Shown piece by piece: positions 5,518-32,062 of a stretch of 37,973 nt of DNA. The stretch spans positions 1 to 37,973 of the forward strand of contig JAMPXO010000038.1 in the NCBI GenBank assembly GCA_023701125.1, in the 5' to 3' direction. The translations under genes and the position numbers were made by a program. Position 1 is the first letter of the stretch; every line of letters begins with the position of its first letter. Source of the stretch: Vicinamibacteria bacterium. Its GTDB lineage: Bacteria; Acidobacteriota; Vicinamibacteria; Fen-336. Under the pieces are notes generated by a model. The model searched no databases. It was not told the origin of the DNA and worked only from the letters and a program-made list of their open reading frames with translations.

Positions 5518-6720
5518 GTGCCGCAGGCGCTGCGCCGCTTCGCCCCCGTCCTCGCGCTGTTCGCGATCTCGTTTCCGCTCTGGTACCTGGGGATGACCTG
5601 GCGCGGCGGCTCCGGCCTCCTCGACCACTCCCCGATCGACCAGCACGCGCTGCAGGCGCGAGCGTGGCTCGCGGGTCGGCTGGACCTCGACCGGGTGCCG
5701 CCGAGCCTGGAGATCGCGCACTTCGAGGGCCGCGCGTTCAACTCCTTCCCGCCGACGCCGAGCCTCGTCGAGCTGCCGCTGGTCGCGGCCTTCGGGCGGC
5801 GCACGCCCAACGGACTCGCCATGTACGGCTTCTGGCTGGCGGCGCTGTGCGCGATGCAGCACGTGCTCCAGCGGCGCGGGATGCCGCCCGTGCACGCGGG
5901 AGCTCTGGCGCTGGCGTTCGTGTTCGGCACCAACGTCTACGCCTCGTGCGTGCGCGCCAACGTGTGGGGCTGGGGCCAGGGCCTCGGCTTCTGCCTGGCC
6001 GTGCTCGGCCTGTCGCGGGTGATCGACAACAAGGGCTGCGGCTGGCGCGGCCCCGGGCCCGGCTACCTGCTGCTGGCACTCGCCGTCGGCTGCCGGCCTT
6101 TCTACCTGTTCATGGCGCCGCTGTTCGTGGCGCTCGACGGGAAGACCGGCCGCGGCGACGTGAAGCTCGCAGCGCGCGACGCGGTGCTGTGGATGGCGCC
6201 GTTCGGCGCGGCGCTGGCGGCGTTCAACTTCGCCCGCTTCGGCAACCCGCTGGAGTTCGGCCACAACTACCTGGCGTGGGCGCAGGCGCTGCCCGGCGGC
6301 ATCTTCGACCTGCGCTACGTCGGGCGGAACCTGTTCCACGCGACGCTGCGGCTGCCGGAGTGGGTGCCGGGCGGCGACCCGGTCCTCGCCTTCGACCCGT
6401 GGGGCACGGCGTTCTGGCTCAACAACACGATCTTCCTGTTCGCCCTGCGCGCGCTGGTGCGCGAGCCGCTCGACCCGTGGGTCCGCGCGACGGCCGCGCT
6501 GGCACTGACGCTGACCTGGTCGGGGCTGCTGCTGCACGAGACCAACGGCTTCCGCCAGTTCGGCTACCGCTTCCTGATCGACCTGCTGCCGACCGGCTTC
6601 GCGCTGCTCGCGCTGACGGCGCGCCGCTTCACGCCGGCGATGGCCGCCGCGTTCGCGTGGTCGCTGGCCGTGAACCTCTACGGCCTCGCGACCTGGAAAG
6701 AGATGCCGCGCCCGCTCTGA
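5518..6720 (+). CDS. Multi-pass membrane protein, GT-C glycosyltransferase-like
   Basis: A 400-aa protein starting at GTG, 10 nt after the nucleoside-recognition gene and probably co-transcribed with it. About ten hydrophobic segments are visible. An early extracytoplasmic loop carries HFEGRAFNSFPPTPSLVELPL, which resembles the loop after the first helix in GT-C/ArnT-like mannosyltransferase relatives. Another conserved-looking stretch is ANVWGWGQGLGFCLAVLGLSR. The canonical acidic pair of GT-C enzymes is not clearly present, so a transferase function is only suggested. It ends 6 bp from the convergent chaperone cluster. Confidence 0.7.
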   Translation: MPQALRRFAPVLALFAISFPLWYLGMTWRGGSGLLDHSPIDQHALQARAWLAGRLDLDRVPPSLEIAHFEGRAFNSFPPTPSLVELPLVAAFGRRTPNGLAMYGFWLAALCAMQHVLQRRGMPPVHAGALALAFVFGTNVYASCVRANVWGWGQGLGFCLAVLGLSRVIDNKGCGWRGPGPGYLLLALAVGCRPFYLFMAPLFVALDGKTGRGDVKLAARDAVLWMAPFGAALAAFNFARFGNPLEFGHNYLAWAQALPGGIFDLRYVGRNLFHATLRLPEWVPGGDPVLAFDPWGTAFWLNNTIFLFALRALVREPLDPWVRATAALALTLTWSGLLLHETNGFRQFGYRFLIDLLPTGFALLALTARRFTPAMAAAFAWSLAVNLYGLATWKEMPRPL

Positions 6721-6726
6721 CCCTCC

Positions 6727-9700
6727 TCAGCGCTTGCGCCGCAGCTCGCGGCGATGCACTCCGCGGCGGTCGCTGACGATCGGGCCGGCCAGCCGGTCGG
6801 GAGTCTCGAGCTCGAGCGTGACCTCGTAGGTCTCGCCGTCCAGGTCGCGCTCGCGGTAGGTCAGGACCTGGCCGTCGAACGAGACGTCCGAGTAGCGATC
6901 TCCGCTGCCCCCGCGGGCGAGGCGCACGCCGCCGCCCGCGTCGGCCGAGATGCGGACGGGATCGGGGTTCGGCTCGCCGTCCCAGTACTCGTGCCACTCG
7001 CCGACGAGCGCCTGCGCCGCCGCCGCGCCGTCCGAGGGCGGCACGGGCGCCGTGGCCGTCCCGCCGCGGAGCGTGGCCCACCAGGTCCAGCGCAGGCCGT
7101 TGACGTTCGAGCCGCTGCCCTCCATCCGCTGACCGCGGATCGTGCCCTTGTTCTCGGCGTACTGGCCGTTCATCTCCATGTAGACGGAGTCGCCGTCCTG
7201 GCGCCACGTGCCATTGCGGAAGCGACCGGTGCTGTAGTCGTACTCGAGCGTGCCGTCGGGGTGGAACGTGTACTCGTAGCGGCCGCCGGGAGTCTCCTCG
7301 CCCTCCCACGTGGTGCCGGCGAGTTGGACGAGGCCCGCGACGCTGTGGGCCACGGAAGCCGGGACCGGGGCCGCGGCCCAGCCGGGGTCGATGCGGTCGA
7401 GCGCCTCGCGCACGGCCTCGCGCACGGGCTGCTCCGGGTCGTCGCGGTACGCCATCAGCCCGGGCACCGCGTCTTTCGCCGCCGGCCCGAGCTCGCCGAT
7501 CGCGCGGGCGGCGATCGCGCGCCGCGTCGTGCCCGGTTCGCCCAGCGCTTTCAGGAAGATCGGCGCGTCGGCCGGGCCCGTCACGAACTCCTTGCCCATC
7601 CAGGCCACGGCGTCCTCCGCGGCGCGCCGGACCTGGTACTCCGGGTCGAGGCGCAGCCGCAGCAGCGCCTCGCGGTGCGGGGCCGCGCCGGCGCCCAGCG
7701 CGCCGAGGCCCCACGCGCCGTTGACGCGCCACGTGGAGTCGGACGACTCGAGGGCCGCGACGTAGACCGGCCGCGCGCGCTCCGGGTGGATCAGCCCCGC
7801 GCCGTGCAGCAGGCGGGTGGCCAGCGGGTCGCCGTTGGCATACGCCGCGAAGAGACCGCCGAAGAAGAACAGCACCAGCCCCGCGGCGACCGCGGCGGCA
7901 ATCGCCAGCCGACGCCGCCAGCGGCGGCGCACGACCTGGCGCGCGAGCGCCGGATCCACCTTCTCCAGGGCCTCGAACGCGAGGGCACGGACCTGTTCGT
8001 CGGCGTCCTTCGCCGCGGCCTCCGCGAGCGCGGGGCCGGCCGTGCGCAACGACGCGGCCAGCTCGGCGTGACCCGCGGCCTGACCGGCCATCGCGCCCAG
8101 CGCGCGGGCCGCGGCGCGACGCGGCGGCACGACCGGGTCGGCCAGCAGGTGGGCCAGGCCACGAACGGCGGCCGGGGTCGGCGTGCAGACCTCGGGCAAC
8201 GCGGTGGCCGCGGCCTCGCGCACCTCCGCGTCTGCGTCGCGCAAGGCGGCGCCGAGGGCGGGCCCCGCGGTGCGGGCCGCACGGCCGATCGCCTGCAGCG
8301 CGCTCACGCAGGCCAGGCGGGAGGCCGAGTCGGGACCCTGCAGGCCGCGGGCGAGGTCGGGCACGGCCTCGATCGCCGCGGGCAGCTTCGCCCAGCCGGC
8401 GTCGATCCGGGCCAGCGCCTGCTGCGCCGCCCGGGCCACCGCGCCCGTGCGGTCGGCGAGCAGCGCAGCGAGGACCGGGATCGCGGCCGGGTCGGCGAGT
8501 GCGCCGAGCGCCTCCGCGGCGGCGGAGCGGACCTCCTTGTGCGGGTCGTGCAGCGCCGTGGCGAGCGCGGCGCCGGCCGACGTGGCAGCGGGGCCCAACG
8601 CACCCAGCGCCTGCGCGGCCGCGCGGCGCGCCTTCGGTTGCTCGGCGCCCAGCGCGGCGATCAGGTCGGGCAGTGCCTCGCGGGCGCCCTCGCTGCGCGC
8701 CCAGTCGGCGTCGATCTGCACCAGCGCCGCCGGCGCGACCGCCGCCAACCCGGCCTCGGGGTCCGCCAGCAATCGCACGAGCGGGCCGATCGCGCGCGGG
8801 TCGCGGACCGCGCCCAGGGCGTTCAACGCCGCCTCGCGCACCGCCGGCTCGGGGTCGTGCAACACCATCAGCAACGACGGCACCGCGGCCTTGCCGAGGC
8901 CGACGGCGGCGGTGCAGGCCAGCGCCCGCACCCGGGCGTGTTGGTGGCGCAACGCGAACGTGATCTCGTCGGCGGCGGCGGCGCCCAGAGCCTTCAGCGC
9001 CTCGGCGGCGCCTTCGCGCACCGGCGCCTTCTCGTGATCGAGCGCCGCGGCCAGCGCGGCAGCGGCGGGCGCGCCCTGGCGGCCGAGCGCCGTGGCCGCG
9101 GCGCGACGCACGTCCTTGTCGCCGTCGGCGAGCGCGTGGATCAGCGCCGGGATCGCACGGCCCGAGGGGTCCTGGCCATGGCCGAGCGCCTCGGCGGCGC
9201 GCGTGCGGTCGTCGGCCGAGCCCTGGCTCAGCGCCTTCAACAACTCGGGCGTGCCTGCCAGGCCGAGCCGCATCCGCGTGTTGTGGACCGAGGGCAGGCT
9301 GGTGCCGATGTCCGAGCCCAGCTTCTTCAGCGCGTCGAGGTTCTCCTTGACCGCGGTGTCGTCGGGTGCCAGGTCCGCGGCGACGACGAGGTCCCCCGCC
9401 GCGTCCACCATCGCCTCGCGCATGCGGCCCTTGCGCGCGTCGCGCTCGCGGTCGTCGCGGCTGTTGCAGTCCGGGCACACGATGACCGGAATGTCCTTGA
9501 ACGTGAACTTGTAGAAGCGGCTGTAGATGCGCGAGCCGCAGGCCATGCAGTGGATCTCGATGTTGGCGTCGCCGGCCATGCCGATGCGGGCCGCCATCGC
9601 CGTCATCACGAACGTGTGGTCGCCGCGGCCGGCGCGCTCCGCGATGCGGGCGATGATCCAGGGCGGCTCCTGGGCGATCGCCATCGCCGGCTTCAGCTTC

Positions 9701-11238
9701 GCCATCGAGCGCTTGTTGAGGGCGCTGGCCAGGGCCTGGCCGACGACCTTGCGCTGCGGCTCTGGCAACTCGCCGCAGGCGCGGCCCATGTACACGCCGA
9801 CCAGCGGGCCGATCGACTCCTCCCACTCCTGGGTCTCGGCGCGGGCGCGCGCGCGCTCGGCGATCTCCAGCACCGGCGCCGGCAGGTCGTAGTAGCCCGC
9901 CGCGCACCAGTCGCCGCCGGTTTCCGTGTTCTTGCGGACGATGTCGAGGTTGTCCTGGACCCGCTGCTTCGTCGCCGCCGACGAGGCGGTCGCGAGCACC
10001 GGACCCAGCAGCTCGACGCAGCGGCGCCAGTCCTGGGTCTTGTTGCCGTAGGCGATCTGGCACGAGAGCGCCTTCAGTGCCACGTCGTCGTGGGCGGCCT
10101 CGCGCACCAGGTCGCCCGGCTCGAGCAGCGTGTCGAGCACGCGCAGCAGCGGCGTCGTCTGCTCCAGCAGGCGGCCGACCAGCGCGTCGGCGTGGACGGG
10201 GTCGCGGTCCGCCTCGGCCTCGGCAGTCGTGCACAGGGTCTTGATGCGCTGCCGCTGCGGCTCCAGCACGCGGTGGAGGGTGTCGACGACCAGCGCCGAG
10301 CGCTTCGGCGCCGCGGCGCCCTTGCGCTTGCGCGGCCCGCCTTTCGCCTTGACCGTCTTCTTGCACGCCGGGCACCACACCTGGCCCACCAGCTTGTCCA
10401 GGTCGACCGGTCCCTCGCACACCGCGCAGCGCGGCGCCTCGACGACGGCCGCGGGAGCCGGGGCCGGCGCCTCGTCGGCGGGCGGCGCATCCCACAGGTC
10501 GAGGTGGTGCACGTGGCGGGCGGCCGCGTCGAGGGCCGCGGACTCCGCCGCCTTCGCGGCCAGCTCGGCGCTGACCGAGAGCACCGCGCGCGGCAGCGAG
10601 GAGACGATGCCGTCGGCCTGCTCGGGGGTCAGCCGCGGGTCGGACAGCTCGGCCAGCCGTGCTCGCAACCGCTCGCGCAGGCCGGGGTCTTCGACCAGCC
10701 GGCGCCAGCGCCGGATCGCGTCTTCCCAACGCAGCTCGGTGCCATCGGTCGCGCCCTTCTCCTCGGCCTCGAGGGCCTGCAGGTGAGCGAGCACGGCGAG
10801 GTCGTGACGGGCGGCGAGCGCGGTGGCGCCGCCGGCCTGCTCCTGTTCCTGCCAGATCCGCTGCGCGGTCTCGAGGTCGCCCTTCGCCAGCGCCAGCAGG
10901 GCGGGGTCGGCGGCGCTGCGCTCGGCGGGCCAGAACCAGAACAGCTCGTCGACGATGCGGTCTTCGGGGTCGTGCAGCCGGCGCAGCGCCTCGCGGATCG
11001 CGTCGGAGTCGGGCGGCGGCTCGAGCGCCAGCGCGCCGCGGCCGTCGCCGCCCGGTGTCGCCAGCTTCTCCATCAGCTTCAGCCGATCGGCGCGGCGGGT
11101 GACGTCCCGGCCGCTGGCGTCGACCGGAAGGCCGGTGACGCGGAAGGCGTTGCGGCGGTAGAGATCGGGGTGGGCCGCCTCCATCAACGGCGCGAAGGCC
11201 ACGCCCCGTTCGCTGTCGGCACCGGCCGCTTCGCCCAT
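6727..11238 (-). CDS. J-like / zinc-ribbon / HEAT-repeat transmembrane protein with lipocalin-like C-terminus
   Basis: A 1503-aa protein and the last gene of the chaperone cluster. Residues about 29-52 (RNAFRVTGLPVDASGRDV) follow the J-domain pattern but lack HPD. Conserved WxWP-type sequence (ELFWFWP) follows near 98-104. Two zinc ribbons are present: C271/C274/C289/C292 and C564/C567/C588/C591. HEAT repeats fill about 650-1095, an RRRWRRR-flanked membrane helix spans about 1110-1133, and further HEAT repeats run to 1290. A lipocalin-like module at about 1303-1390 (GTTWEGEE, NGTWRQDGDSVYMEMN) is followed by a second beta domain. The positive-inside rule puts the N-terminus in the cytosol and the last 370 residues in the periplasm. 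The ATG at 11238 has GGAG 7 nt upstream. The same frame is open upstream, but that is shadow sequence of the Clp gene. The likely role is a membrane-anchored co-chaperone or scaffold (inference). Confidence 0.85.
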   Translation of the reverse strand: MGEAAGADSERGVAFAPLMEAAHPDLYRRNAFRVTGLPVDASGRDVTRRADRLKLMEKLATPGGDGRGALALEPPPDSDAIREALRRLHDPEDRIVDELFWFWPAERSAADPALLALAKGDLETAQRIWQEQEQAGGATALAARHDLAVLAHLQALEAEEKGATDGTELRWEDAIRRWRRLVEDPGLRERLRARLAELSDPRLTPEQADGIVSSLPRAVLSVSAELAAKAAESAALDAAARHVHHLDLWDAPPADEAPAPAPAAVVEAPRCAVCEGPVDLDKLVGQVWCPACKKTVKAKGGPRKRKGAAAPKRSALVVDTLHRVLEPQRQRIKTLCTTAEAEADRDPVHADALVGRLLEQTTPLLRVLDTLLEPGDLVREAAHDDVALKALSCQIAYGNKTQDWRRCVELLGPVLATASSAATKQRVQDNLDIVRKNTETGGDWCAAGYYDLPAPVLEIAERARARAETQEWEESIGPLVGVYMGRACGELPEPQRKVVGQALASALNKRSMAKLKPAMAIAQEPPWIIARIAERAGRGDHTFVMTAMAARIGMAGDANIEIHCMACGSRIYSRFYKFTFKDIPVIVCPDCNSRDDRERDARKGRMREAMVDAAGDLVVAADLAPDDTAVKENLDALKKLGSDIGTSLPSVHNTRMRLGLAGTPELLKALSQGSADDRTRAAEALGHGQDPSGRAIPALIHALADGDKDVRRAAATALGRQGAPAAAALAAALDHEKAPVREGAAEALKALGAAAADEITFALRHQHARVRALACTAAVGLGKAAVPSLLMVLHDPEPAVREAALNALGAVRDPRAIGPLVRLLADPEAGLAAVAPAALVQIDADWARSEGAREALPDLIAALGAEQPKARRAAAQALGALGPAATSAGAALATALHDPHKEVRSAAAEALGALADPAAIPVLAALLADRTGAVARAAQQALARIDAGWAKLPAAIEAVPDLARGLQGPDSASRLACVSALQAIGRAARTAGPALGAALRDADAEVREAAATALPEVCTPTPAAVRGLAHLLADPVVPPRRAAARALGAMAGQAAGHAELAASLRTAGPALAEAAAKDADEQVRALAFEALEKVDPALARQVVRRRWRRRLAIAAAVAAGLVLFFFGGLFAAYANGDPLATRLLHGAGLIHPERARPVYVAALESSDSTWRVNGAWGLGALGAGAAPHREALLRLRLDPEYQVRRAAEDAVAWMGKEFVTGPADAPIFLKALGEPGTTRRAIAARAIGELGPAAKDAVPGLMAYRDDPEQPVREAVREALDRIDPGWAAAPVPASVAHSVAGLVQLAGTTWEGEETPGGRYEYTFHPDGTLEYDYSTGRFRNGTWRQDGDSVYMEMNGQYAENKGTIRGQRMEGSGSNVNGLRWTWWATLRGGTATAPVPPSDGAAAAQALVGEWHEYWDGEPNPDPVRISADAGGGVRLARGGSGDRYSDVSFDGQVLTYRERDLDGETYEVTLELETPDRLAGPIVSDRRGVHRRELRRKR

Positions 11239-11264: not shown

Positions 11265-14222
11265 TCAGGCCAGCTCGACGTCTTCGCCCGACAGTCGTGC
11301 CCGCACGACGACGCCGCGTTCGAGGCCGCGGGCCCGGGTGCGGACCGGGCCGCCGATCGCGCGCTCGAAGCGGCGCAGGAAGCCGCGCGCGCCTTCGGCT
11401 TGCGCCAGCCCCTCGGCCACGAGTCGCTCGCGCAGCGCGGGCTCGACCTCGAGCGCCCCGCCGCCGTGCGCGTCCAGCTCGGCCGCCAGCGCCGCGAGCT
11501 GGCGCTCGAGCAGTGCTTCGTAGTCGGCGGCCGCGAGCGGCGCGAACGCCACCACGCGGTCGATGCGGGCGAGGAACTCGGGCCGGAAGGCGCGCTCGAG
11601 GTGGCCGTCGGCGCCAGGCTCCGCCTCGCCGGCGGCCGAGCCCACGAAGCCGATCGTGCCCTCGCCCTGCGGCGCGTTGCAGGTCAGGACGAACAGGTGG
11701 CGGCGGAAGTCGACGCAGCGCCCGCGCGAGTCGGTGGCCTGGCCCTGGTCGAACACCTGCAGGAACCAGTCGGCGACGCCGGGCGCCGCCTTCTCCATCT
11801 CGTCGAGCAGGATCAGGCCCTGCGGGTGGCCCTCGGTGAAGCGGAACAGCGCGCCCGGCTCCTCGTGGCCGACGAAGCCCGGCGGCGCGCCGGACAGCCG
11901 CGCGAGGTCGTGGCGCTCGCCGTACTCGCTCATGTTGAAGCGGCCGAGGGCGCGACCCCCGGCGTCGAAGAGGGCGCGGGCGAGGGTTTCGGCGGCCAGC
12001 GTCTTGCCCACGCCCGTGGGCCCGCTGAACAGCAACACCGCCAGCGGCCGCGGCGAGGCCGGGTCGCGGGTGGCGGCGGCGGCCAGCGTCTCGCGGATCG
12101 CGGCGATGGCCGGTTCCTGGCCGACCAGCGCCCTGCGCAACGCGGCCGCCGCGCGGTCCGCGTCGAGCGCGCCCGCGGCGGTGACCGCGATCCCGTACTG
12201 CTCCTCGAGCACGGCCTCGATCTCGCGCGGCCCGACCCGCGGTGGCTGCTTCGCCGGCGCCGCCTCCTTCTCCGACAGTGACGACACGCAGGCGGCGGCG
12301 GCGGCGTTCTCCAGCAAGTCGATCGCCTTGTCGGGCAGCCGCCGCGCGGGCAGCAGCCGGGCCGAGAGGGTGACCGCGGCGGCGATCGCCTCGGGCGCCA
12401 ACTGCACGTGCTGGCGCTCCTCGATCCGCCGCGCCCACGTCTCGCACATCGCCAGCGCCTCGGCCTCGGACGGTTCGCCGAGCCGCAACAACTGGAACCG
12501 ACGCACGAAGGCGGCCTCGCCCTTGACGTGGCGCTCGAACTCCTCGGTCGTGGTCGCGCCGATGCAGCGGAAGTCGTCGCGGGCGAGCGCCGGCTTCAGG
12601 ATGTTGGCGACGTCGATCGCGCCCTCGCCGCCGCCTGCGCCCATCACCAGGTGGATCTCGTCGAGGAACAGCACGAGGTCGGGGTCCTCGCAGGCCTCGG
12701 ACAGCAGGCCCTTCAGCCGCTGCTCGAGGTCGCCGCGATAGCGGGTGCCGGCGACGAGGTCGGACACGCGCAGCTCCACGATCCGCAGCCGGCGCAGCAC
12801 CTCGCGGGCGTCGGGTGCCACCAGCCGCTGCGCGAAGCCCTCGACCAGCGCGGTCTTGCCGACGCCGGCGTCGCCGACCAGCAGCACGTTGCGCTTCGAC
12901 GTGCGTTGCAGGTAGCGGGCGAGGGTGCGCATCTCGGCCTGGCGGCCGATCACGGGCGAGAGCCGACCGGCGCGGGCCAGCTCCGTGAGGTCGCGGCCGA
13001 GCGGCGCGCCCAGCTCGCCCTTCAGCGCGGCCCGTCGGCGGGGCTCGGGCTCTCGTTCGACGGGGGCTGCGGAGCTCGCGTGAGGCGCGCCGGGCTCGTA
13101 CGGCGCGGCCTTGTCGGAGGCCGGCGGCTTGACGAAAGCCGCCTGGCCGATCTCGCCCACCTCGAACACCTCGACGGGCTCGTCGAGGCCCTTCACCTTG
13201 TAGAGGCCGTGCGAGCGCCACTCGATCGGCCCGAGGTCCGCGGGCGGCGTCGCAGCGAGACCCTCGCGGGCGGCGTCGTGCACGCCGCGGTCGGTCAGCA
13301 CCTGGTTGCCCGCGGCCAGCGACGAGATCCGCGATGCGGTGTCGATGGTGATGCCGAACAGCGGGTCGGAGAGCCCGCTGCCGCCGGCGGCCTTGCTCAG
13401 CACCGGGCCCGCGAACATCCCCATCCGCACCTTGAGCCCGACCTGCGCCAGGTCCTTGTGCGCGCGCAGCCGCGCCTGCACCGCGAGGCAGAAGCGCACC
13501 GCGTCCTCCTCCGCGGAGAACGCGAGCAGGAAGGCGTCGCCGATGGTCTTGATCTCGCGGCCGCCGGGATGCGCCTGCAACAGGTCGCGGAAGACGTTGT
13601 CGTGGGCGCGGAAGATGCGGGCGGCCTCGACGTCGCCGTAGCGGCGCTTGATCGCCATCGAGCCTTCCATGTCGGTCAGCACCAGCGTCACCCGTTCCAG
13701 AGCGAAGCGGGCGACGAACTCGTCGATCCGGGTCTCCCACTCCAGCGGGACCTTGGGCGACGCATGGCCGTCGAGGAACGGCGCGACGTCGGGCGGCGGC
13801 GCCTGCAGCATCGCCCGCAGCAGGTGGACGGGAGCGATCGCGAGGGCCGGGCCCTCGAGCGCGAACGGCGCGGCGGCCTCCAGCAGTTCTCGGGTCGACG
13901 CGGCGAGCGAGAGCCGGCGGATCGGGCGCTCCTCGTCGTCGGGTCGGGCGGCGCGGCGGACCTTGCGCCGCAGCCGGGTCAGCTCGGACGCGTCCATGCC
14001 GAGCACCGCGCGGGCCTCCGCGCCCTGCGCCCGCAGCTCGCGGGCGACGTCCGGCGCGACGCCGGCGCCTTCGAGGTCGGTGTCGAGCGCGTCGTCCGCC
14101 AGCTTGAGCAGCGTCAACAGCACGTGCAGCGGCGCGATCTCCTCGCGGCCGGCGAGGCAGGCCTCGCCGTTCGCGAGCGAGAGCAGCGTCTGCGCGGCCG
14201 CGCTGGTCGGGATCGCCTTCAC
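11265..14222 (-). CDS. Clp-type AAA+ unfoldase with embedded class III nucleotidyl cyclase domain
   Basis: A 985-aa protein. Residues 1-150 resemble the Clp_N double repeat. Residues about 178-355 form a class III cyclase domain: metal Asp184 (VLTDMEGSMA), Lys225/Asp229 (EIKTIGDAF), Asp286, and D294...R298 (TIDTASRI), where Asn is usual at 294. The first AAA+ module has Walker A GDAGVGKT (450-457), pore loop RYRGDLE and DEIH (521-524). The second has GPTGVGKT (734-741), pore loop GAPPGFVG and DEMEK (807-811). The long ClpB middle domain is absent. An IGF tripeptide (857-859) sits where ClpA/ClpC carry the ClpP-docking loop. GTG at 14222 overlaps the previous stop by four bases (GTGA); the open frame upstream is shadow. 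It probably unfolds or disaggregates proteins under cyclic-nucleotide or nucleotide-dependent control (inference). Confidence 0.92.
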   Translation of the reverse strand: MKAIPTSAAAQTLLSLANGEACLAGREEIAPLHVLLTLLKLADDALDTDLEGAGVAPDVARELRAQGAEARAVLGMDASELTRLRRKVRRAARPDDEERPIRRLSLAASTRELLEAAAPFALEGPALAIAPVHLLRAMLQAPPPDVAPFLDGHASPKVPLEWETRIDEFVARFALERVTLVLTDMEGSMAIKRRYGDVEAARIFRAHDNVFRDLLQAHPGGREIKTIGDAFLLAFSAEEDAVRFCLAVQARLRAHKDLAQVGLKVRMGMFAGPVLSKAAGGSGLSDPLFGITIDTASRISSLAAGNQVLTDRGVHDAAREGLAATPPADLGPIEWRSHGLYKVKGLDEPVEVFEVGEIGQAAFVKPPASDKAAPYEPGAPHASSAAPVEREPEPRRRAALKGELGAPLGRDLTELARAGRLSPVIGRQAEMRTLARYLQRTSKRNVLLVGDAGVGKTALVEGFAQRLVAPDAREVLRRLRIVELRVSDLVAGTRYRGDLEQRLKGLLSEACEDPDLVLFLDEIHLVMGAGGGEGAIDVANILKPALARDDFRCIGATTTEEFERHVKGEAAFVRRFQLLRLGEPSEAEALAMCETWARRIEERQHVQLAPEAIAAAVTLSARLLPARRLPDKAIDLLENAAAAACVSSLSEKEAAPAKQPPRVGPREIEAVLEEQYGIAVTAAGALDADRAAAALRRALVGQEPAIAAIRETLAAAATRDPASPRPLAVLLFSGPTGVGKTLAAETLARALFDAGGRALGRFNMSEYGERHDLARLSGAPPGFVGHEEPGALFRFTEGHPQGLILLDEMEKAAPGVADWFLQVFDQGQATDSRGRCVDFRRHLFVLTCNAPQGEGTIGFVGSAAGEAEPGADGHLERAFRPEFLARIDRVVAFAPLAAADYEALLERQLAALAAELDAHGGGALEVEPALRERLVAEGLAQAEGARGFLRRFERAIGGPVRTRARGLERGVVVRARLSGEDVELA

Positions 14223-15087: not shown

Positions 15088-15093
15088 CCTCCT
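15088..15093 (-). promoter_or_regulatory. Strong Shine-Dalgarno overlapping the Hsp70 stop codon
   Basis: AGGAGG on the minus strand shares bases with the Hsp70 stop TAG (15094-15092) and is spaced 5 nt from TTG at 15082. This decides the start and suggests translational coupling. Confidence 0.65.
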
Positions 15094-17590
15094 AGCGAAT
15101 CAACCCCGAGAGCACCTTGTCGCGGTCCTCGTCGCCCGCCGGCAGCAGACCGGCGAGCTGGCGGACCGCGGCCTTCAGCGCCTCGACGTCGTTGTTGTTG
15201 ATCGCGCGGCGGGCCTGGGCGATGTACTCGTCCGCGCGCGCGGGATCGGTCATCAGGTGCTTCTTGGTCTCCAGGAAGCCGAGGCGGCCGACCCAGAAGC
15301 CGGGCTGGCGCAGCACGATCACCGCGCCGAGCCGGTCCATCTCCTGGACGCGGCCGCGGAGCAGGTCGGGGTCGCGCTCCTTGACGGCGCGGCGCACGTC
15401 CTGCTCGAGCGCGGCGAACGCCTGCTTCTCCTCCGCGGTGGCCTTGAAGTCGGGGTCGTTGACGATCTTGCGCTCGACCTCCACTTCTTTCTCCGCGGAG
15501 GCGACCAGCGCAGGCCACTCCAGGGCGTCTTCGACCTCGTCGATCGCCGACTTCAGGTCGAGCAGCCGCTTCTCGCACTTGTCGGCCGCGTCGGGATCGC
15601 CCGCGCCCGCCGCCAGCGAACCTTCGACCTCGCTGACCGCGTGCTCGCGCTCGATCCGCGCCAGCGCCTCCCCCGCCCGCGGGTCGCCGGTCTGGCGGCC
15701 CTTGTCGCGCGCCTCCTCCAGCCGCTTCTTCTGCCGCTCCACGTCGTTGCGCAGCTCGTCGGGGTGGCGCGCCTGCTTGCGGTACTCGTCGTAGCTGATG
15801 ACCTTGCCGAACTCGTTGTCGAGGATCGGCAGGTAGGCGGTCGCCTTCAGCAGCCGCGAGGCGTCGATCTCGATCGTGACCTCGACCTCGCTGCCGGCGG
15901 GCACGTCGCGCTGGACCTGGTCCGAGGTGATCTCCAGGTTGCCGATCAACTGGTTGCGGTCCGCGCGCGGGTTCTGGCCCTCCATCACCGGGATCTTGAT
16001 CGAGTGGTGGGCGTTGCCGCGGCGCACGTCGATCGCGGTGCGCAGCACCTTCAGCCGCCGCGCGGGCAGCGGCGTGCCCTTGTCGAGCAGCCACTCCATC
16101 TCGTTGTTGGCGAGGGCGACGCCGACCGAGTGGATCAGCGGCGGGTCGGTGATCGACAACCCGACCGTGTAGACGAGCTGGTCGGGGCTGACCGGCAGCA
16201 GCCGGCCGGTCTGGTCGCAGAGCTCGATGCGGAAGGTGTTGGGTCGCCCCTTCTCCGCCCACAGGCTGGTCATGAAGCCGCCGTTCGCGGCGATCGCCGT
16301 GCGCCCGCTGCGCCACGGCGGCCGGGCCTCGGCGTTGACGAACTCGACCGTGTAGTCGGAGACGTCGGCGCCGTCGGGGCTGGTCACCCGGCCGCCGACC
16401 AGCGGCTCGGTGTCCGCGCCGACCGGCTTGTACTCGAGCTGGATCTGGCACTGGCCCGCGACCGGGGCCGCGACGGACGTCGACTCCAGGCGCTGGGTGC
16501 CGGAGAAGATCGCGGCGCCGCGGGCGACCACGGTCAGCGGGTCGATCGAGAACTCGAGCGGGATGCCGAGGCCCTCGGCCAGCCGCTGGCGCAGGTACGG
16601 GGTCAGCGTCGGGCCGCCGACGAGCAGCACCTTCTCGACGTCGCCCGCGCCCAGCCGGCGCTCGGACAGCACCTTGCGGCAGATGTTGATCGCACGCTCG
16701 ACGTAGGGCTCGATCAGAGGCTCGACGTCGCTGCGCCGCAGCTCGTACTCGAACAGCACGCTCTCGCCGCGGTCGTCCTGGCACAGGCCGTCGATCGCGA
16801 TCTCGACCGAGCCCTCGCGCGACAGCCGGATCTTGGCCAGCTCGGCGTTCTGCTTGAGCTTGGCGATCGCCCCCGCGTGCTTGAGGTTGGCCCGCGACAG
16901 GTCGCTCACGGGGTGCTGCTTGTGGACGGCGGGGATCAACAACTGCTCGACGATCGACCAGTCGATCAGCTTGCCGCCGAGGTGGTTGTCGCCGCCGTGG
17001 TTGACGACCTGGATCACGCCGTCGCGGACGTGGATCACGGCCGCGTCGAAGGTGCCGCCGCCGAAGTCGTAGACGAGCCAGAACACCTTGTCGCTCTCGC
17101 TCTGGAAGCCGTAGGCGAGGGCGGCCGCCACGGGCTCCTGCAGCAGCGGGCTGGCGACGAAGCCGGCTCGCTGCGCCGCCTGCTTGGTCGCCTCGCACTG
17201 CGGCAGCTCGAACGCCGCAGGCACCGTGATCACGGCCGCCTCGACGTTCTCGCCCGAGCGCTGGGCCACGTCGCGCTTGAGCTCCTTCAGCACCTCGGCG
17301 GACAGGTCCTCGGGCCGCAGCGCGTGGCCGCTGCGCTTGAACGTGTACTCGCGGCCGGTGCCCATCTGCAGCTTGAACTCGCTGAAGGCGTTCTCCGGGT
17401 CGATCACCAGCCGCTCGTAGGCGCGGCGGCCGACACGCAAGGCGCCGGTCTTGTCCTGGAACACCGCGGAAGGCGTGTACTCGAAGCCCTCGTTGTTCTT
17501 GAACACGTGGGGCTCGGTGCCCTCGAGCACCGCGATGCTGCTGTTGGTGGTGCCGAGGTCGATGCCGTAGTCGATCGTCGCCCGTGCCAT
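15092..17590 (-). CDS. Hsp70 (DnaK-like) chaperone with extra beta domain and long helical tail
   Basis: An 832-aa Hsp70 of a non-housekeeping class. The nucleotide-binding domain spans 1-365, with phosphate loops GIDLGTTNSS (9-18) and VYDFGGGTFD (173-182) and adenosine motif VLLVGGPTLTP (321-331). About 125 beta-rich residues (375-500) with no counterpart in DnaK separate it from the substrate-binding beta domain (505-590, IKIPVMEGQN, VTIEIDASRLLKATA). A 240-residue charged helical tail follows (RQKKRLEEARDKGRQ, RRAINNNDVEALKAAVRQLAG). No EEVD ends it. The ATG at 17590 has GGAG 8 nt upstream and lies 3 nt after the GrpE-like gene. Partners are expected to be that exchange factor, the J-like protein and the Clp protein. 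Confidence 0.95.
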   Translation of the reverse strand: MARATIDYGIDLGTTNSSIAVLEGTEPHVFKNNEGFEYTPSAVFQDKTGALRVGRRAYERLVIDPENAFSEFKLQMGTGREYTFKRSGHALRPEDLSAEVLKELKRDVAQRSGENVEAAVITVPAAFELPQCEATKQAAQRAGFVASPLLQEPVAAALAYGFQSESDKVFWLVYDFGGGTFDAAVIHVRDGVIQVVNHGGDNHLGGKLIDWSIVEQLLIPAVHKQHPVSDLSRANLKHAGAIAKLKQNAELAKIRLSREGSVEIAIDGLCQDDRGESVLFEYELRRSDVEPLIEPYVERAINICRKVLSERRLGAGDVEKVLLVGGPTLTPYLRQRLAEGLGIPLEFSIDPLTVVARGAAIFSGTQRLESTSVAAPVAGQCQIQLEYKPVGADTEPLVGGRVTSPDGADVSDYTVEFVNAEARPPWRSGRTAIAANGGFMTSLWAEKGRPNTFRIELCDQTGRLLPVSPDQLVYTVGLSITDPPLIHSVGVALANNEMEWLLDKGTPLPARRLKVLRTAIDVRRGNAHHSIKIPVMEGQNPRADRNQLIGNLEITSDQVQRDVPAGSEVEVTIEIDASRLLKATAYLPILDNEFGKVISYDEYRKQARHPDELRNDVERQKKRLEEARDKGRQTGDPRAGEALARIEREHAVSEVEGSLAAGAGDPDAADKCEKRLLDLKSAIDEVEDALEWPALVASAEKEVEVERKIVNDPDFKATAEEKQAFAALEQDVRRAVKERDPDLLRGRVQEMDRLGAVIVLRQPGFWVGRLGFLETKKHLMTDPARADEYIAQARRAINNNDVEALKAAVRQLAGLLPAGDEDRDKVLSGLIR

Positions 17591-18187: not shown

Positions 18188-19297
18188 CTACATCGCCACG
18201 CCCCGCCGCCACAGCCGGACCTGGTTCGCGTAGCGCTCGCGCAGGTCCGGCCACTTGTTGAACGCCTCTTCCATCTGGTCGGCCGCGTCGGCGAAGCGGC
18301 CGCGCTCGCGGGCCAGGGAAACGGCCTGGCGCGCCATCGTCTCGGCCTGGCGCTGGTCGCCCGGCGTGTGCATGCCGAGCGCGCTCTTCGACTCGTCGAG
18401 GCCGCTGCCCTTGGCCCGCGCGCCCGGCGCGCCGGCGCCGGCGGGCTGCCAGCGCTCGAGGTCGGCGAGCAGCTCGCGCGCGGAGGGGTGGCGCTCCTCG
18501 GGTTTCAGCGACAGCGCGCGGAACAGGATCTGGTCGAGGCCCGCGTCGGCCTTGGCGTTGAGTCGCGAGGGCGGGATCAGCGGCCGCTCGAAGCGACCCG
18601 GGTCGGCGGCCGCCTCGGTGTCGCCCAGGCCCGCGTAGGGCAGGCGGTCGGTCAGCAGCAGGTACAGCGTGCAGCCGAGCGCCCACACGTCGCCCGCCGC
18701 GGAGTCGGTCTGGAAGTCGCGCAGCGCCTCGGGGGCCTTGAACGAGCGGGTGCCGCGCGCGGAAGCCAGCAGCGTCAGCGGGTTGACGCGCTTGGCGAGC
18801 CCGAAGTCGCTGATCCGCGCCTGCAGGCCGTTCTGGTCGTAGCCGACCAGGATGTTCTGCGGCTTGATGTCGCGGTGGATGATCGGCGGCACCTCGGCGT
18901 GGGCGAGAGCCAGCCCGCGGCAGACCTGGCGCAGGATCTCGACCGCGGTCTCGACCGGCACGAACTGGGCGCCGTGCGAGCGCCAGAACTGCTCGAGCGA
19001 ACCGCCGGCGACGTACTCCATCGTGAAGAAGCCGCAGGTGCCGCGCGAGGTCTCGGTCACGTTGGCGTCGAACACGCGGACGATGTTGGGGTGGCCGATG
19101 CGCGACAGCAGGATCGCCTCGCCCAGCATCTGCTCGGTCTCCTCCATGGTCATGCCGACCATCTTGAAGACCTTCATCGCCTGGCGGCCGAGGAAGCGGT
19201 GCTTGACGCGATAGACCTCGGCGAACGCGCCTTCGCCGAGCGGACGTTCGACCTCGTAGGTTCCGCGGATGAGCTGCCCCTCGCGAAGCAGGCTCAT
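18188..19297 (-). CDS. Cytosolic Ser/Thr protein kinase, first gene of the chaperone operon
   Basis: A 369-aa Hanks-type kinase with an intact core: glycine loop GEGAFAEV (21-28), Lys42 in AMKVFK, HRDIKPQN (141-148), DFG (164-166) and APE (188-190). After the kinase lobe come about 85 residues with a linker and TPR-like helices (MARQAVSLARERGRFADAADQMEEAF). No membrane segment is visible, unlike the two kinases at 30323-34422. The ATG at 19297 has GGGAG 6 nt upstream. The same frame is open for 148 more codons but holds no kinase sequence. It heads a 12.6 kb co-directional run, so it may phosphorylate the chaperones or their co-factors (inference). Confidence 0.93.
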   Translation of the reverse strand: MSLLREGQLIRGTYEVERPLGEGAFAEVYRVKHRFLGRQAMKVFKMVGMTMEETEQMLGEAILLSRIGHPNIVRVFDANVTETSRGTCGFFTMEYVAGGSLEQFWRSHGAQFVPVETAVEILRQVCRGLALAHAEVPPIIHRDIKPQNILVGYDQNGLQARISDFGLAKRVNPLTLLASARGTRSFKAPEALRDFQTDSAAGDVWALGCTLYLLLTDRLPYAGLGDTEAAADPGRFERPLIPPSRLNAKADAGLDQILFRALSLKPEERHPSARELLADLERWQPAGAGAPGARAKGSGLDESKSALGMHTPGDQRQAETMARQAVSLARERGRFADAADQMEEAFNKWPDLRERYANQVRLWRRGVAM

Positions 19298-19310
19298 GGC
19301 CTGCTCCCGA

Positions 19311-19324
19311 CAACCCTCGGGTTG
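19311..19324 (-). promoter_or_regulatory. Inverted repeat in the leader of the chaperone operon
   Basis: A 6-bp inverted repeat, CAACCC-TC-GGGTTG, lies 14 nt before the kinase start codon and just upstream of its Shine-Dalgarno. It could be an operator or a small RNA hairpin. Confidence 0.3.
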
Positions 19325-19412
19325 GCCGTGCGATGGGCCACGGCGACGCTCCCGGTCCTGTGGTGAGGTTTCGGGCGGTGGGGCGAGCGTCCCCACCCCC
19401 GTTTCGATCGTG

Positions 19413-19443
19413 ACGATACGCCTCGTCCCCCCCGCCCTGTCCA
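19413..19443 (-). promoter_or_regulatory. Candidate promoter of the chaperone operon
   Basis: On the minus strand TGGACA (19443-19438) is followed after 19 nt by TATCGT (19418-19413), about 115 nt before the kinase start. The same TATCGT occurs upstream of the amidohydrolase gene. An odd-length dyad, ATCGTGACGAT (19407-19417), overlaps the -10. I see neither a CIRCE element nor a clear sigma-32 box. Confidence 0.4.
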
Positions 19444-19492
19444 GCCCTTTGCGGAGCGACGGCGCGGGGCCGGGGTGACGGCCGCGGCGTGG

Positions 19493-19498
19493 TAGCGT
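19493..19498 (+). promoter_or_regulatory. Candidate -10 of a leaderless transcript (DUF2721 gene)
   Basis: TAGCGT ends 7 nt before ATG at 19506 with no Shine-Dalgarno between. Confidence 0.38.
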
Positions 19499-19505
19499 CG
19501 CGGCC

Positions 19506-19994
19506 ATGGCCGAGAACGCCGCGCTCTCCCTGCTCTCCGCGATGATCACGCCGGCCGTGCTGATCTCCGCCAGCGGCATGCTGATCCTGTCGACCGCCAG
19601 CCGGCTGGCGCGGATCGTCGACCGCGTGCGCACGCTCGCCCGCCAGATCGAGGAGACGGGCCAGGGCCCGGACGACGAGCTGTTGGCCGAGCGTCGCGCC
19701 GAGCTGGAGCGCCAGATCGGCACCCACACGACGCGCGGCAAGCTGATCCAGGCCTCGCTGACCTCGCTCTACGTGTCGCTGGCGCTGTTCGTGGCCGCGA
19801 CCGTCGTCATCCCGCTGGTCGCCCTGGCCGGCGCGCTCGCCTACCTGCCGGTCGCGTTCGGCGTCCTCGGCACGCTGTCGCTGTTCCTCGGCACGCTGTT
19901 CCTGATCCGCGAGACAGGCATGGCACTGACCTCGATCGGCGAGGAGATGGCCTTCGCCCGCCGCATCGCGGATCGCTCCCGCCGCGCCCGGTAA
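19506..19994 (+). CDS. DUF2721-family membrane protein
   Basis: 162 aa. The opening segment PAVLISASGMLILSTASRLARIVDRVRTL is the signature of DUF2721: a membrane helix followed by a basic amphipathic helix. A charged coiled segment follows (about 45-75), and then two more membrane helices (about 88-112 and 114-135). The family is common but its function is unknown. The start has a -10-like hexamer seven bases upstream and no Shine-Dalgarno. It is divergent from the chaperone operon; the 208 bp between them hold the operon's candidate promoter. Confidence 0.85.
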   Translation: MAENAALSLLSAMITPAVLISASGMLILSTASRLARIVDRVRTLARQIEETGQGPDDELLAERRAELERQIGTHTTRGKLIQASLTSLYVSLALFVAATVVIPLVALAGALAYLPVAFGVLGTLSLFLGTLFLIRETGMALTSIGEEMAFARRIADRSRRAR

Positions 19995-29765: not shown

Positions 29766-30326
29766 TTGTCCGACGACGCACCGCTCACCGAGCTGTTGCA
29801 GGCCTGGTCGGCCGGCGACACCGCCGCCCGCGAGGCGCTGCTGCCGCGCGTCTACGGCGAGTTGCGGCGGCGCGCCAACGCCTACCTGCGGCGCGAGCGG
29901 CCGGGCCACACCCTGCAGCCGACGGCGCTGGTCCACGAGGTCTACCTGCGGCTCGCCGCGCAGCACGTCGACTGGCAGAGCCGCGGCCACTTCTTCGGCC
30001 TCGCCTCGCAGTCGATGCGCCGCATCCTGGTCGACCACGCCCGCCACGAGGGCCGGGCCAAGCGCGGCGGCGGGGCGCTGAAAGTGGAGCTGTCGGAGGA
30101 CGTGGCCGGCGCGGCGCCCGCGGGCGACGTCGACCTGGAGGCGCTCGACGCGGCCCTCGAGGAGCTGGCGCGGCTCGACCCGCGCCAGGGCCGGATCGTC
30201 GAGCTGCGCTACTTCGGCGGGCTGTCGATCGAGGAGACGGCCGCCGTGCTCGACCTCTCCCCCGCCACCGTCAAGCGCGACTGGACGCTGGCCCGCGCCT
30301 TTCTGCACCAGCGGCTGCGCGCATGA
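29766..30326 (+). CDS. ECF-type RNA polymerase sigma factor (TIGR02999-like)
   Basis: 186 aa. Region 2 reads LLQAWSAGDTAAREALLPRVYGELRRRA...HTLQPTALVHEVYLRL, then HFFGLASQSMRRILVDHAR. Region 4 is LDPRQGRIVELRYFGGLSIEETAAVLDLSPATVKRDWTLARAFL. This is the sigma group abundant in Acidobacteriota and Planctomycetota, usually linked to Ser/Thr kinases, not to a classic anti-sigma factor. The ATG at 29634 would add 44 unrelated residues overlapping the divergent gene. TTG at 29766 gives the usual N-terminus. The kinase gene overlaps the stop (ATGA), so phosphorylation may control the sigma factor (inference). Confidence 0.9.
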   Translation: MSDDAPLTELLQAWSAGDTAAREALLPRVYGELRRRANAYLRRERPGHTLQPTALVHEVYLRLAAQHVDWQSRGHFFGLASQSMRRILVDHARHEGRAKRGGGALKVELSEDVAGAAPAGDVDLEALDAALEELARLDPRQGRIVELRYFGGLSIEETAAVLDLSPATVKRDWTLARAFLHQRLRA

Positions 30327-32062
30327 CGCCCGAGCGCTGGGCCCGCATCAAGCAGGCGTTCGAGGCGGTGATGGACGCGCCCCCCGAGCAGCGACGCGAC
30401 GCGGTCGAGCGGGCCTGTGCGGGGGACGAAGGCCTGCGCGACGAGGTGCTGGCGCTGCTCGCGGCCGGCGACGCCGCCGAGGAGCAGCAGTTCATCGAGA
30501 AGCCGGTCAGTGCCTTCGACGACTACCGCGGCCCCGCCGAGGAGCCGGCCCCACCGCGCCACATCGGCCCGTTCGAGATCCACGGCGAGCTGGGCCACGG
30601 CGGCATGGGCAGCGTCTACCGCGCCCACCGCCGCGACGACCCGAGCCGCACGCCCGTGGCCGTCAAGGTGATGCGCGCCGGCCTCGCGACCGGCGCGCTG
30701 CGCGACCGCTTCTACAAGGAGCAGGCCATCCTCGCGGCACTCGACCACCCCGGCATCGCCCGGCTGCTGGAGGCCGGCGTGACCGAGGCCGGCTCGCCGT
30801 GGCTGGCGATGGAGCTGATCGACGGCCTGCCGCTCACCACCTGGGCCCATCGCCAGCAGCTGGCGACCCGCGACCGGGTGCAACTGTTCGTGCAGGTCTG
30901 CGACGCGATCGCGTACGCCCACGAGCGCCGCGTCGTCCACCGCGACCTGAAGCCCGCCAACATCCTGGTCACCCACGGCGGCGAGGTGCGGCTGCTGGAC
31001 TTCGGGATCGCCAAGCTGCTGCCCGGCGCCGACGAGATGCAGGCGATGTCGACCGTCACCCACGCCGGGCTGATGACGATCGACTACGCGAGCCCGGAGC
31101 AGGTGCTGGGCGAGCCGGTCGACGACCGCAGCGACGTCTACGCGCTGGGCGTCCTGCTGTGCGAGCTGCTGACCGGGCGTCGCCCGTACCGCGTCACCTC
31201 GCGGCGGCCCGAGGCGTTCCTCAAGGCGATGCTGATCGACGCGCCGCAGCCGCCTTCCGCCCTCGCCCGCACCGAACGCCCTGGCGATCCGCTGGCGGAG
31301 GCGCTGGCGGCCGAGCTCGCCGGCGACCTCGACGCGATCGTGCTGCACGCACTGGCCAAGGCGCCCGAGGACCGCTGCCCCTCGGCGGCCGCCTTCGCCG
31401 ACGACCTGCGCCGCCACCTCGCGGGCCGTGCGCCGGCCGCACGCACGCTGCCCGTGACCCGCAAGCTGGGCCGCATCGCGCGCCGGCGTGGTCGCGTCGT
31501 CGTCGCCGCCGCGCTGACCGCGGTCGTGCTCGGCGGCGCCGCGACCTGGTGGCGGGCGGCCGGGGGCGGGCCGACGGCCGGCTCCGCGGCGCGCGCGGCG
31601 GAAGACGGGCGGCGGGCGGCGGCGACTGCGCTCGACGTGGTCGAGGAGAGCTTCGCCGGGCTCGGCGACGCTCCCGTCGCGGACGAAGAGGTGCGCGCGC
31701 GGCTGACCGTCGAGCTCGATCGCGCGGCGCTGCTGGCCGAGGCCGTCGACGACCCACAGGTGCGGCGGCGCTGGGCCGCGGCCGAAAGCCGGCTCGGCGC
31801 GCTGGGCGGCAGTGGCGCGCTCGCCCGGTTGCGGCGTTCGCAGCAGCTCTATGCCGAGCTGGCCGCCGCCGACCCCGCCGACGCCCGGGCCGCGCTGCAG
31901 GCAGCGGAGGCCCAGCACCGGCTCGCCGCGGCCCGCCACGACTGCGTTCTGCTCGCGGCCGCGGCGCGGGCGGCGCGCACGATCGGCGAACTCGACGAGG
32001 CGGAGACGCAGGCCGCGGCGTGGGAGCGCGAGGCCGCCGCCTGCGCCAGCGGGGCGCCATGA
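30323..32062 (+). CDS. Transmembrane Ser/Thr protein kinase
   Basis: 579 aa. The N-terminal 70 residues (PERWARIKQAFEAVMDAPPEQR) are the typical lead-in of ECF-linked kinases. The kinase domain has GHGGMGSV (91-98), Lys115, HRDLKPAN (206-213), DFG (226-228) and SPEQ. A membrane helix lies near 390-411 (VVVAAALTAVVLGGAATWW). The outer part is Ala-rich helical, shorter than the TPR domains often seen here. Its start overlaps the sigma stop and its stop overlaps the next kinase start, both as ATGA, so the three proteins are made together. Confidence 0.93.
   Translation: MTPERWARIKQAFEAVMDAPPEQRRDAVERACAGDEGLRDEVLALLAAGDAAEEQQFIEKPVSAFDDYRGPAEEPAPPRHIGPFEIHGELGHGGMGSVYRAHRRDDPSRTPVAVKVMRAGLATGALRDRFYKEQAILAALDHPGIARLLEAGVTEAGSPWLAMELIDGLPLTTWAHRQQLATRDRVQLFVQVCDAIAYAHERRVVHRDLKPANILVTHGGEVRLLDFGIAKLLPGADEMQAMSTVTHAGLMTIDYASPEQVLGEPVDDRSDVYALGVLLCELLTGRRPYRVTSRRPEAFLKAMLIDAPQPPSALARTERPGDPLAEALAAELAGDLDAIVLHALAKAPEDRCPSAAAFADDLRRHLAGRAPAARTLPVTRKLGRIARRRGRVVVAAALTAVVLGGAATWWRAAGGGPTAGSAARAAEDGRRAAATALDVVEESFAGLGDAPVADEEVRARLTVELDRAALLAEAVDDPQVRRRWAAAESRLGALGGSGALARLRRSQQLYAELAAADPADARAALQAAEAQHRLAAARHDCVLLAAAARAARTIGELDEAETQAAAWEREAAACASGAP

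Follow-up and report, generated by a model that had tools for sequence, protein, structure and literature searches.

A class III nucleotidyl cyclase domain inserted into a ClpA-like unfoldase of a chaperone-kinase gene cassette in a Vicinamibacteria genome

The window, i.e. the whole 37,973-nucleotide stretch of Vicinamibacteria DNA analysed here, contains on its minus strand an uninterrupted frame from 14222 to 11265, exactly where a first-pass annotation made from the sequence alone had placed a fusion of a cyclase with a Clp protein. The GTG start of this gene, named ClpCyc (P0001), shares four bases (GTGA) with the stop of the gene before it, an arrangement known from operons with tight coupling. 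In the direction of transcription, ClpCyc belongs to a cassette composed of genes for a Ser/Thr kinase, a GrpE-like protein, an Hsp70-like protein, a TPR protein, ClpCyc itself and a HEAT-repeat protein. The features are given below, L058 and L059 being the cassette loci of two other genomes and L010 and L011 the closest Clp homologues.

18188..19741, minus strand: cassette gene, Ser/Thr protein kinase, 517 aa
17594..18157, minus strand: cassette gene, GrpE-like protein, 187 aa; Pfam match weak, below the cut-off
15092..17590, minus strand: cassette gene, Hsp70-like protein, 832 aa; 62-65% identical in L058/L059
14219..15088, minus strand: cassette gene, TPR-containing protein, 289 aa; adjoins the Clp gene in L058 and L059 too
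11265..14222, minus strand: ClpCyc (P0001), whole gene, GTG start, 985 aa; Clp_N-like domain, class III cyclase and ClpA-type AAA+ D1-D2
13764..14222, minus strand: predicted divergent Clp_N-like N domain of ClpCyc, residues 1-153; L010/L011 alignment, PDB profile matches and AlphaFold2 model
13203..13700, minus strand: class III cyclase core, residues 175-340; D184, D229, K225, R298, P287 and D294
13098..13202, minus strand: cyclase subfamily tail, residues 341-375 (KGLDEPVEVFEVG...), common to kinase-, FHA- and STAND-fused relatives
13002..13097, minus strand: Pro/Glu/Ala-rich linker before ring 1, residues 376-407; pLDDT mostly <50
12243..13001, minus strand: AAA+ ring 1 (D1); Walker A GDAGVGKT 450-457, pore loop RYRG 494, Walker B LFLDE 518, Arg finger RR 574-575, without M domain
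11268..12242, minus strand: AAA+ ring 2 (D2); Walker A GPTGVGKT 734-741, pore loop GFVG 782-785, Walker B LLDE 805-808, IGF loop 857-859, Arg finger region 879-888, sensor 2 GAR 944-946
6727..11208, minus strand: cassette gene, HEAT-repeat protein, about 1490 aa

In ClpCyc, Pfam matched Guanylate_cyc at residues 175-317 (E 1.2e-12, 48.3 bits, cut-off 21.9) and, in the AAA+ part, AAA at 446-559, AAA_lid_9 at 585-654 and AAA_2 at 725-889, the two rings together spanning residues 408-985. Pfam, NCBIfam and the structural models agree on the order Clp_N-like region, cyclase and two-ring Clp AAA+ part, and the whole fusion lies in one 985-aa open reading frame, both as had been proposed. Among the profiles that the first-pass annotation had suggested as a check, Guanylate_cyc, AAA and AAA_2 were recovered, whereas Clp_N stayed below the Pfam cut-off in residues 1-153 and gave no match. 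Since the 24 best PDB matches of a profile built from the N domains of the three cassette orthologues were all Clp N domains (best E 8e-4), since the ClpCyc N domain aligns with that of L010 and L011 (30-33% identity) and with relatives in which Clp_N does pass Pfam, and since AlphaFold2 modelled it as a confident all-helical domain, residues 1-153 were named a divergent Clp_N-like domain, as predicted from both sequence and model. Two possible tRNA genes called by ARAGORN inside open reading frames, at 11324-11415 (minus strand) and 6177-6243 (plus strand), are probably false and were discarded because an Rfam search at the gathering score gave no tRNA match.

Neither ring has lost its Walker A and B motifs, sensor 1, arginine fingers or aromatic pore loops. 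The NCBIfam ClpA model matched residues 409-957 in a single stretch (E 2.2e-134), and the ClpB and ClpC models matched in two stretches, breaking where the M domain is absent; the lack of this domain between the AAA+ modules corresponds to a ClpA-like layout. The score of 449.4 bits is far below the ClpA equivalog cut-off of 993.15, and ClpCyc is therefore a ClpA-like protein of the Clp family rather than an orthologous ClpA. One ClpP is encoded in the home genome, together with other ClpA- and ClpB-like genes, which makes ClpCyc an accessory paralogue. Its D2 loop TIGFVG (856-861) is found at the position of the ClpP-docking [LIV]G[FL] motif, occupied by PIGF and AIGF in L010/L011, and can be regarded from its sequence as ClpP-docking-like. 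Ring 2 of the L011 cassette Clp (G056:C21, near 66683-68395) shows LLSSWNKA instead of LLDEMEKA at Walker B, with an intact Walker A GKT; the broken Walker B suggests that the second ring of that protein may be dead.

L010 and L011 belong to two other genera of the class Vicinamibacteria and are 59% and 53% identical to ClpCyc over the rings. In both, which lie inside the same six-gene cassette type, the matching N domain is fused directly to ring 1 and there is no cyclase, and the cyclase has therefore been inserted into a cassette Clp. The gene order in L058 and L059 is kinase, HEAT-type, GrpE-like, Hsp70-like, TPR and cyclase-free Clp, and the first ~440 residues of the HEAT-repeat protein of the window match the shorter gene situated there between kinase and GrpE. 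The Hsp70-like protein matches HSP70 over residues 9-364 only and has an atypical C-terminal half of its own, of ~460 residues. No cyclase was present within the 20-kb cassette stretches of L058/L059, and a scan of cassette genes detected no cNMP-binding domain. Of the 193 class genomes, only three (those of the window, L058 and L059) have a close relative of the Hsp70-like protein, and as the neighbouring genes are mostly absent elsewhere, the cassette is sporadic and accessory. The combination of kinase, Hsp70-like, GrpE-like, TPR, Clp and HEAT proteins appears to be undescribed.

Distant Hsp70-like relatives (L107-L112, 33-36% identity) occur in other genomes of the phylum; no other cassette gene was found beside them, except for a kinase and a HEAT-like stretch in L108, and they perhaps represent a second cassette type. 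The window also contains two adjacent Ser/Thr protein kinase genes at 30323-34422 (plus strand), the second with TPR repeats. The PADLOC matches, generic AAA/kinase matches and a weak PycC match (E 2.6e-4), were not read as placing the gene in a defence system.

The cyclase and full-length ClpCyc were modelled separately. The model of residues 151-400, computed with 18 relatives, had a mean pLDDT of 90.9; the full-length model cannot be relied on for the cyclase, a part for which it had no covering relatives. A structure search with the cyclase model retrieved class III cyclases of known structure (5d0e, E 3e-15; TM up to 0.91, target length), the best matches being the mycobacterial Ma1120 and Rv1900c, which were also the two best by sequence (best E in the PDB 5.5e-16). 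A chance match, and with it the possibility initially raised that the cyclase homology is spurious, was rejected on the Pfam (E 1e-12) and PDB values and the confidently predicted fold. The class III residues kept are the metal-binding aspartates D184 and D229, the base-selecting (adenine) lysine K225 and the transition-state arginine R298, but ClpCyc departs from the canon at two positions, the transition-state Asn being replaced by D294 and the second base residue (Asp/Thr) by P287. The site thus looks intact from its sequence, without being fully canonical. Ma1120, the nearest relative of solved structure, has an alanine (A164) at the transition-state Asn position and is still an active adenylyl cyclase, and its change from Ala to Asn lowered activity (PMC4215837); the missing Asn in ClpCyc therefore does not settle the question of activity. 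An acidic residue at this site had no active precedent among the sequences examined. Cyclase activity of ClpCyc is plausible but unproven. Of the two roles suggested in the first-pass annotation, synthesis of cAMP would be compatible with the kept Asp pair, Lys and Arg and with the 8 cyclase genes and 36 cNMP-binding matches of the genome, the two non-canonical positions speaking against it; the other, binding of a nucleotide, may take place without catalysis.

The NCBIfam cyclase model TIGR04510 matched residues 179-373 (E 1.8e-23), with 83 bits against a cut-off of 400 for this 814-residue model, of which only the cyclase part is covered. The nearest relatives of the cyclase (L049-L054, L062, L063, L114-L120 and L123), to which it is ~30-40% identical, are joined to Ser/Thr kinase, FHA, STAND-like NTPase or TPR proteins, and none of them is joined to a Clp. 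The tail KGxDEPVEVFEVG is common to ClpCyc and its closest cyclase relatives, which indicates that the module was inserted together with its own subfamily tail. Since several subfamily relatives also lack the transition-state Asn (replaced by Pro, Asp or Leu), the subfamily may be weak or inactive; one relative, L032, has lost the first metal Asp. Members L050-L052, L062, L063 and L114-L119 carry the cyclase fused to kinase, FHA or TPR modules, and in those aligned (L050-L052, L062 and L063) the Asn is replaced by Pro, Leu or other residues; they possibly constitute a family of pseudo-cyclases or non-canonical cyclases.

The fusion was searched for in other genomes, as the first-pass annotation had proposed, with scans sensitive to close relatives only, and was found in the home genome and in no other genome searched. 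With residues 1-430 as query it was not seen outside the home genome among 193 class genomes, and in a 396-genome sample of the phylum both the whole ClpCyc query (E up to 1e-108) and the cyclase query recovered it from the home genome only. A scan of species-representative genomes matched cyclase relatives without the fusion. It was likewise absent from the plasmids, phages and viral contigs searched, and a mobile-element origin of the whole gene was rejected. As the fusion is a singleton, conservation cannot vouch for its function. This singleton status, the cassette, the orthologues without a cyclase, the IGF loop and the kinase, FHA and STAND affinity of the cyclase subfamily go beyond the first-pass annotation. 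No Clp-cyclase fusion was found in the open-access literature either, in agreement with the first-pass annotation, to which no described one was known. The nearest link found there between an Hsp100 and a cyclic nucleotide is the reported binding of c-di-GMP to ClpB2/ClpV1 (PMC10333796).

The home genome contains 36 cyclic-nucleotide-binding domain matches, 8 cyclase domains and 1 ClpP, and can be considered a cNMP-rich signalling genome. Tentatively, we propose that ClpCyc is a hexamer with tethered cyclases which are located above ring 1, pair as dimers and signal unfolding load by a cyclic nucleotide, a reading that is quite possible but falls short of probable, and whose activity and coupling steps we infer from the architecture. 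A complete class III cyclase with its tail would have been inserted in the flexible linker between the N domain and D1 of a cassette ClpA-type unfoldase, which would form a ClpA-like hexamer. Its six cyclase domains, on flexible tethers above ring 1, would pair to give three dimers per hexamer, since class III cyclase sites form at dimer interfaces. Substrate passed on from the N domain, the Hsp70 or the kinase partners would engage the rings, and assembly or ring movement would put the cyclases into a productive arrangement. They would then make a cyclic nucleotide, most likely cAMP, which reports the unfolding load and would be received by some of the many cyclic-nucleotide-binding proteins of the genome, and the unfolded substrate may go to the single ClpP. 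The broader idea, that an unfolding motor with its own second-messenger synthase converts the engagement of damaged or foreign proteins into a cyclic-nucleotide proteostasis or defence alarm, read by cNMP receptors, is rather unlikely.

The sequence stems from a single draft assembly of 254 contigs, and the initial proposal was to fall if its junction were an assembly artefact unique to one contig. That a cyclase gene was joined to the clp gene in assembly is, however, highly improbable. A chimaera is unlikely because two in-frame joints exactly at domain borders would be needed, and as one ancestral gene flanks the insert on either side, with N domain and rings as in L010/L011, a chimaeric contig is hardly to be expected. 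Composition is uniform over the N domain, cyclase, D1 and D2, with a third-position GC of 0.96, 0.96, 0.97 and 0.96, respectively, and a codon adaptation index (CAI) of 0.77-0.79 over all four parts without a shift at the junctions. The home genome contains seven other Guanylate_cyc matches, none close to the ClpCyc cyclase, and no near-identical copy that could have been mis-joined. Joints, composition and orthologues thus speak against an artefact. A recent neutral insertion, tolerated in the flexible linker and devoid of any role, would fit with a fusion found once among the class genomes and the phylum sample and with orthologues that lack the cyclase, but its chance is slim, as ~220 residues show no decay, the catalytic residues are kept and codon usage equals that of the host gene. 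Moreover, the low identity to its nearest relatives means that none of the sequences found is a recent source of the insert. ClpCyc is a genuine but so far singleton domain insertion in a Clp unfoldase, whose function we infer.

The main rival to the signalling-cyclase reading is that the domain is a weak or dead pseudo-cyclase, which binds a nucleotide or only dimerises and thereby gates the ring or recruits partners, as an input rather than an output. It is favoured by the substitutions at D294 and P287, by the subfamily relatives without the Asn and the one without the first metal Asp, and by a precedent in MoxR-vWA conflict systems, where proteins linked to chaperones carry cNMP cyclase domains described as catalytically inactive (PMC7159879). 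It is possible but doubtful, as both metal aspartates, the lysine and the arginine would not be expected to persist had catalysis been lost, and Ma1120 is active without the Asn. Alternatively, the insert may be a protein-protein docking module by which the Clp is attached to the kinase of the cassette or connected with kinase signalling, nucleotide chemistry being secondary. The presence of a kinase in the cassette and the prevalence of Ser/Thr kinases and FHA proteins in the subfamily, with the nearest relatives on kinase-TPR, FHA and STAND proteins, are in line with this, yet two genomes have the cassette and its kinase without the cyclase, and docking would not require active-site residues to be kept, which makes it distinctly unlikely. 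The signalling hexamer remains our tentative preference.

Adaptors and N domains are known regulators of Clp/Hsp100 machines. No other enzymatic signalling domain of the cyclase kind on a Clp was seen in the genomes or open-access literature searched. An active cyclase would give ClpCyc, within one polypeptide, its own readout of unfolding and thus a direct connection from protein unfolding to signalling in the cell; a six-fold ring with three cyclase dimers would also raise a question of symmetry. The theme of the cassette recalls the MoxR-vWA and GAP1-N2 conflict systems (Kaur et al. 2020, PMC7159879), in which AAA+ or Hsp70/GrpE chaperones occur with cNMP cyclases, kinases, HEAT/TPR and Clp_N; the portion of that paper used here describes no Clp-cyclase fusion, and no MoxR, vWA or GTPase core component was seen among the ClpCyc cassette genes scanned. 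TIGR04510, annotated as 'putative peptide modification system cyclase', is the best cyclase model for ClpCyc, at a score far below its cut-off, and the kinase-fused cyclases of Acidobacteria and Phycisphaera MAGs (L049-L052) share the tail of ClpCyc. The cyclases of these two groups reside on Ser/Thr kinase, TPR, FHA or STAND modules, unlike the Clp-borne ClpCyc. With Ma1120 and Rv1900c, ClpCyc has in common the cyclase fold, metal Asp pair, base Lys and transition-state Arg, and with Ma1120 also the lack of the Asn; it differs from both by the Asp at the Asn position and the Pro at the second base position, and neither of them is on a Clp. Like ClpA, and ClpC/ClpB, ClpCyc has an N domain, here a putative Clp_N-like one, and two AAA+ rings with Walker, pore, Arg-finger and IGF-type loop elements, and it shares with ClpA the ring order without M domain. 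Unlike ClpA, it is encoded in a kinase/Hsp70 cassette, scores 449 against 993 bits at the equivalog cut-off, and combines a divergent N domain with a cyclase insert of ~220 residues in the linker between the N domain and D1.
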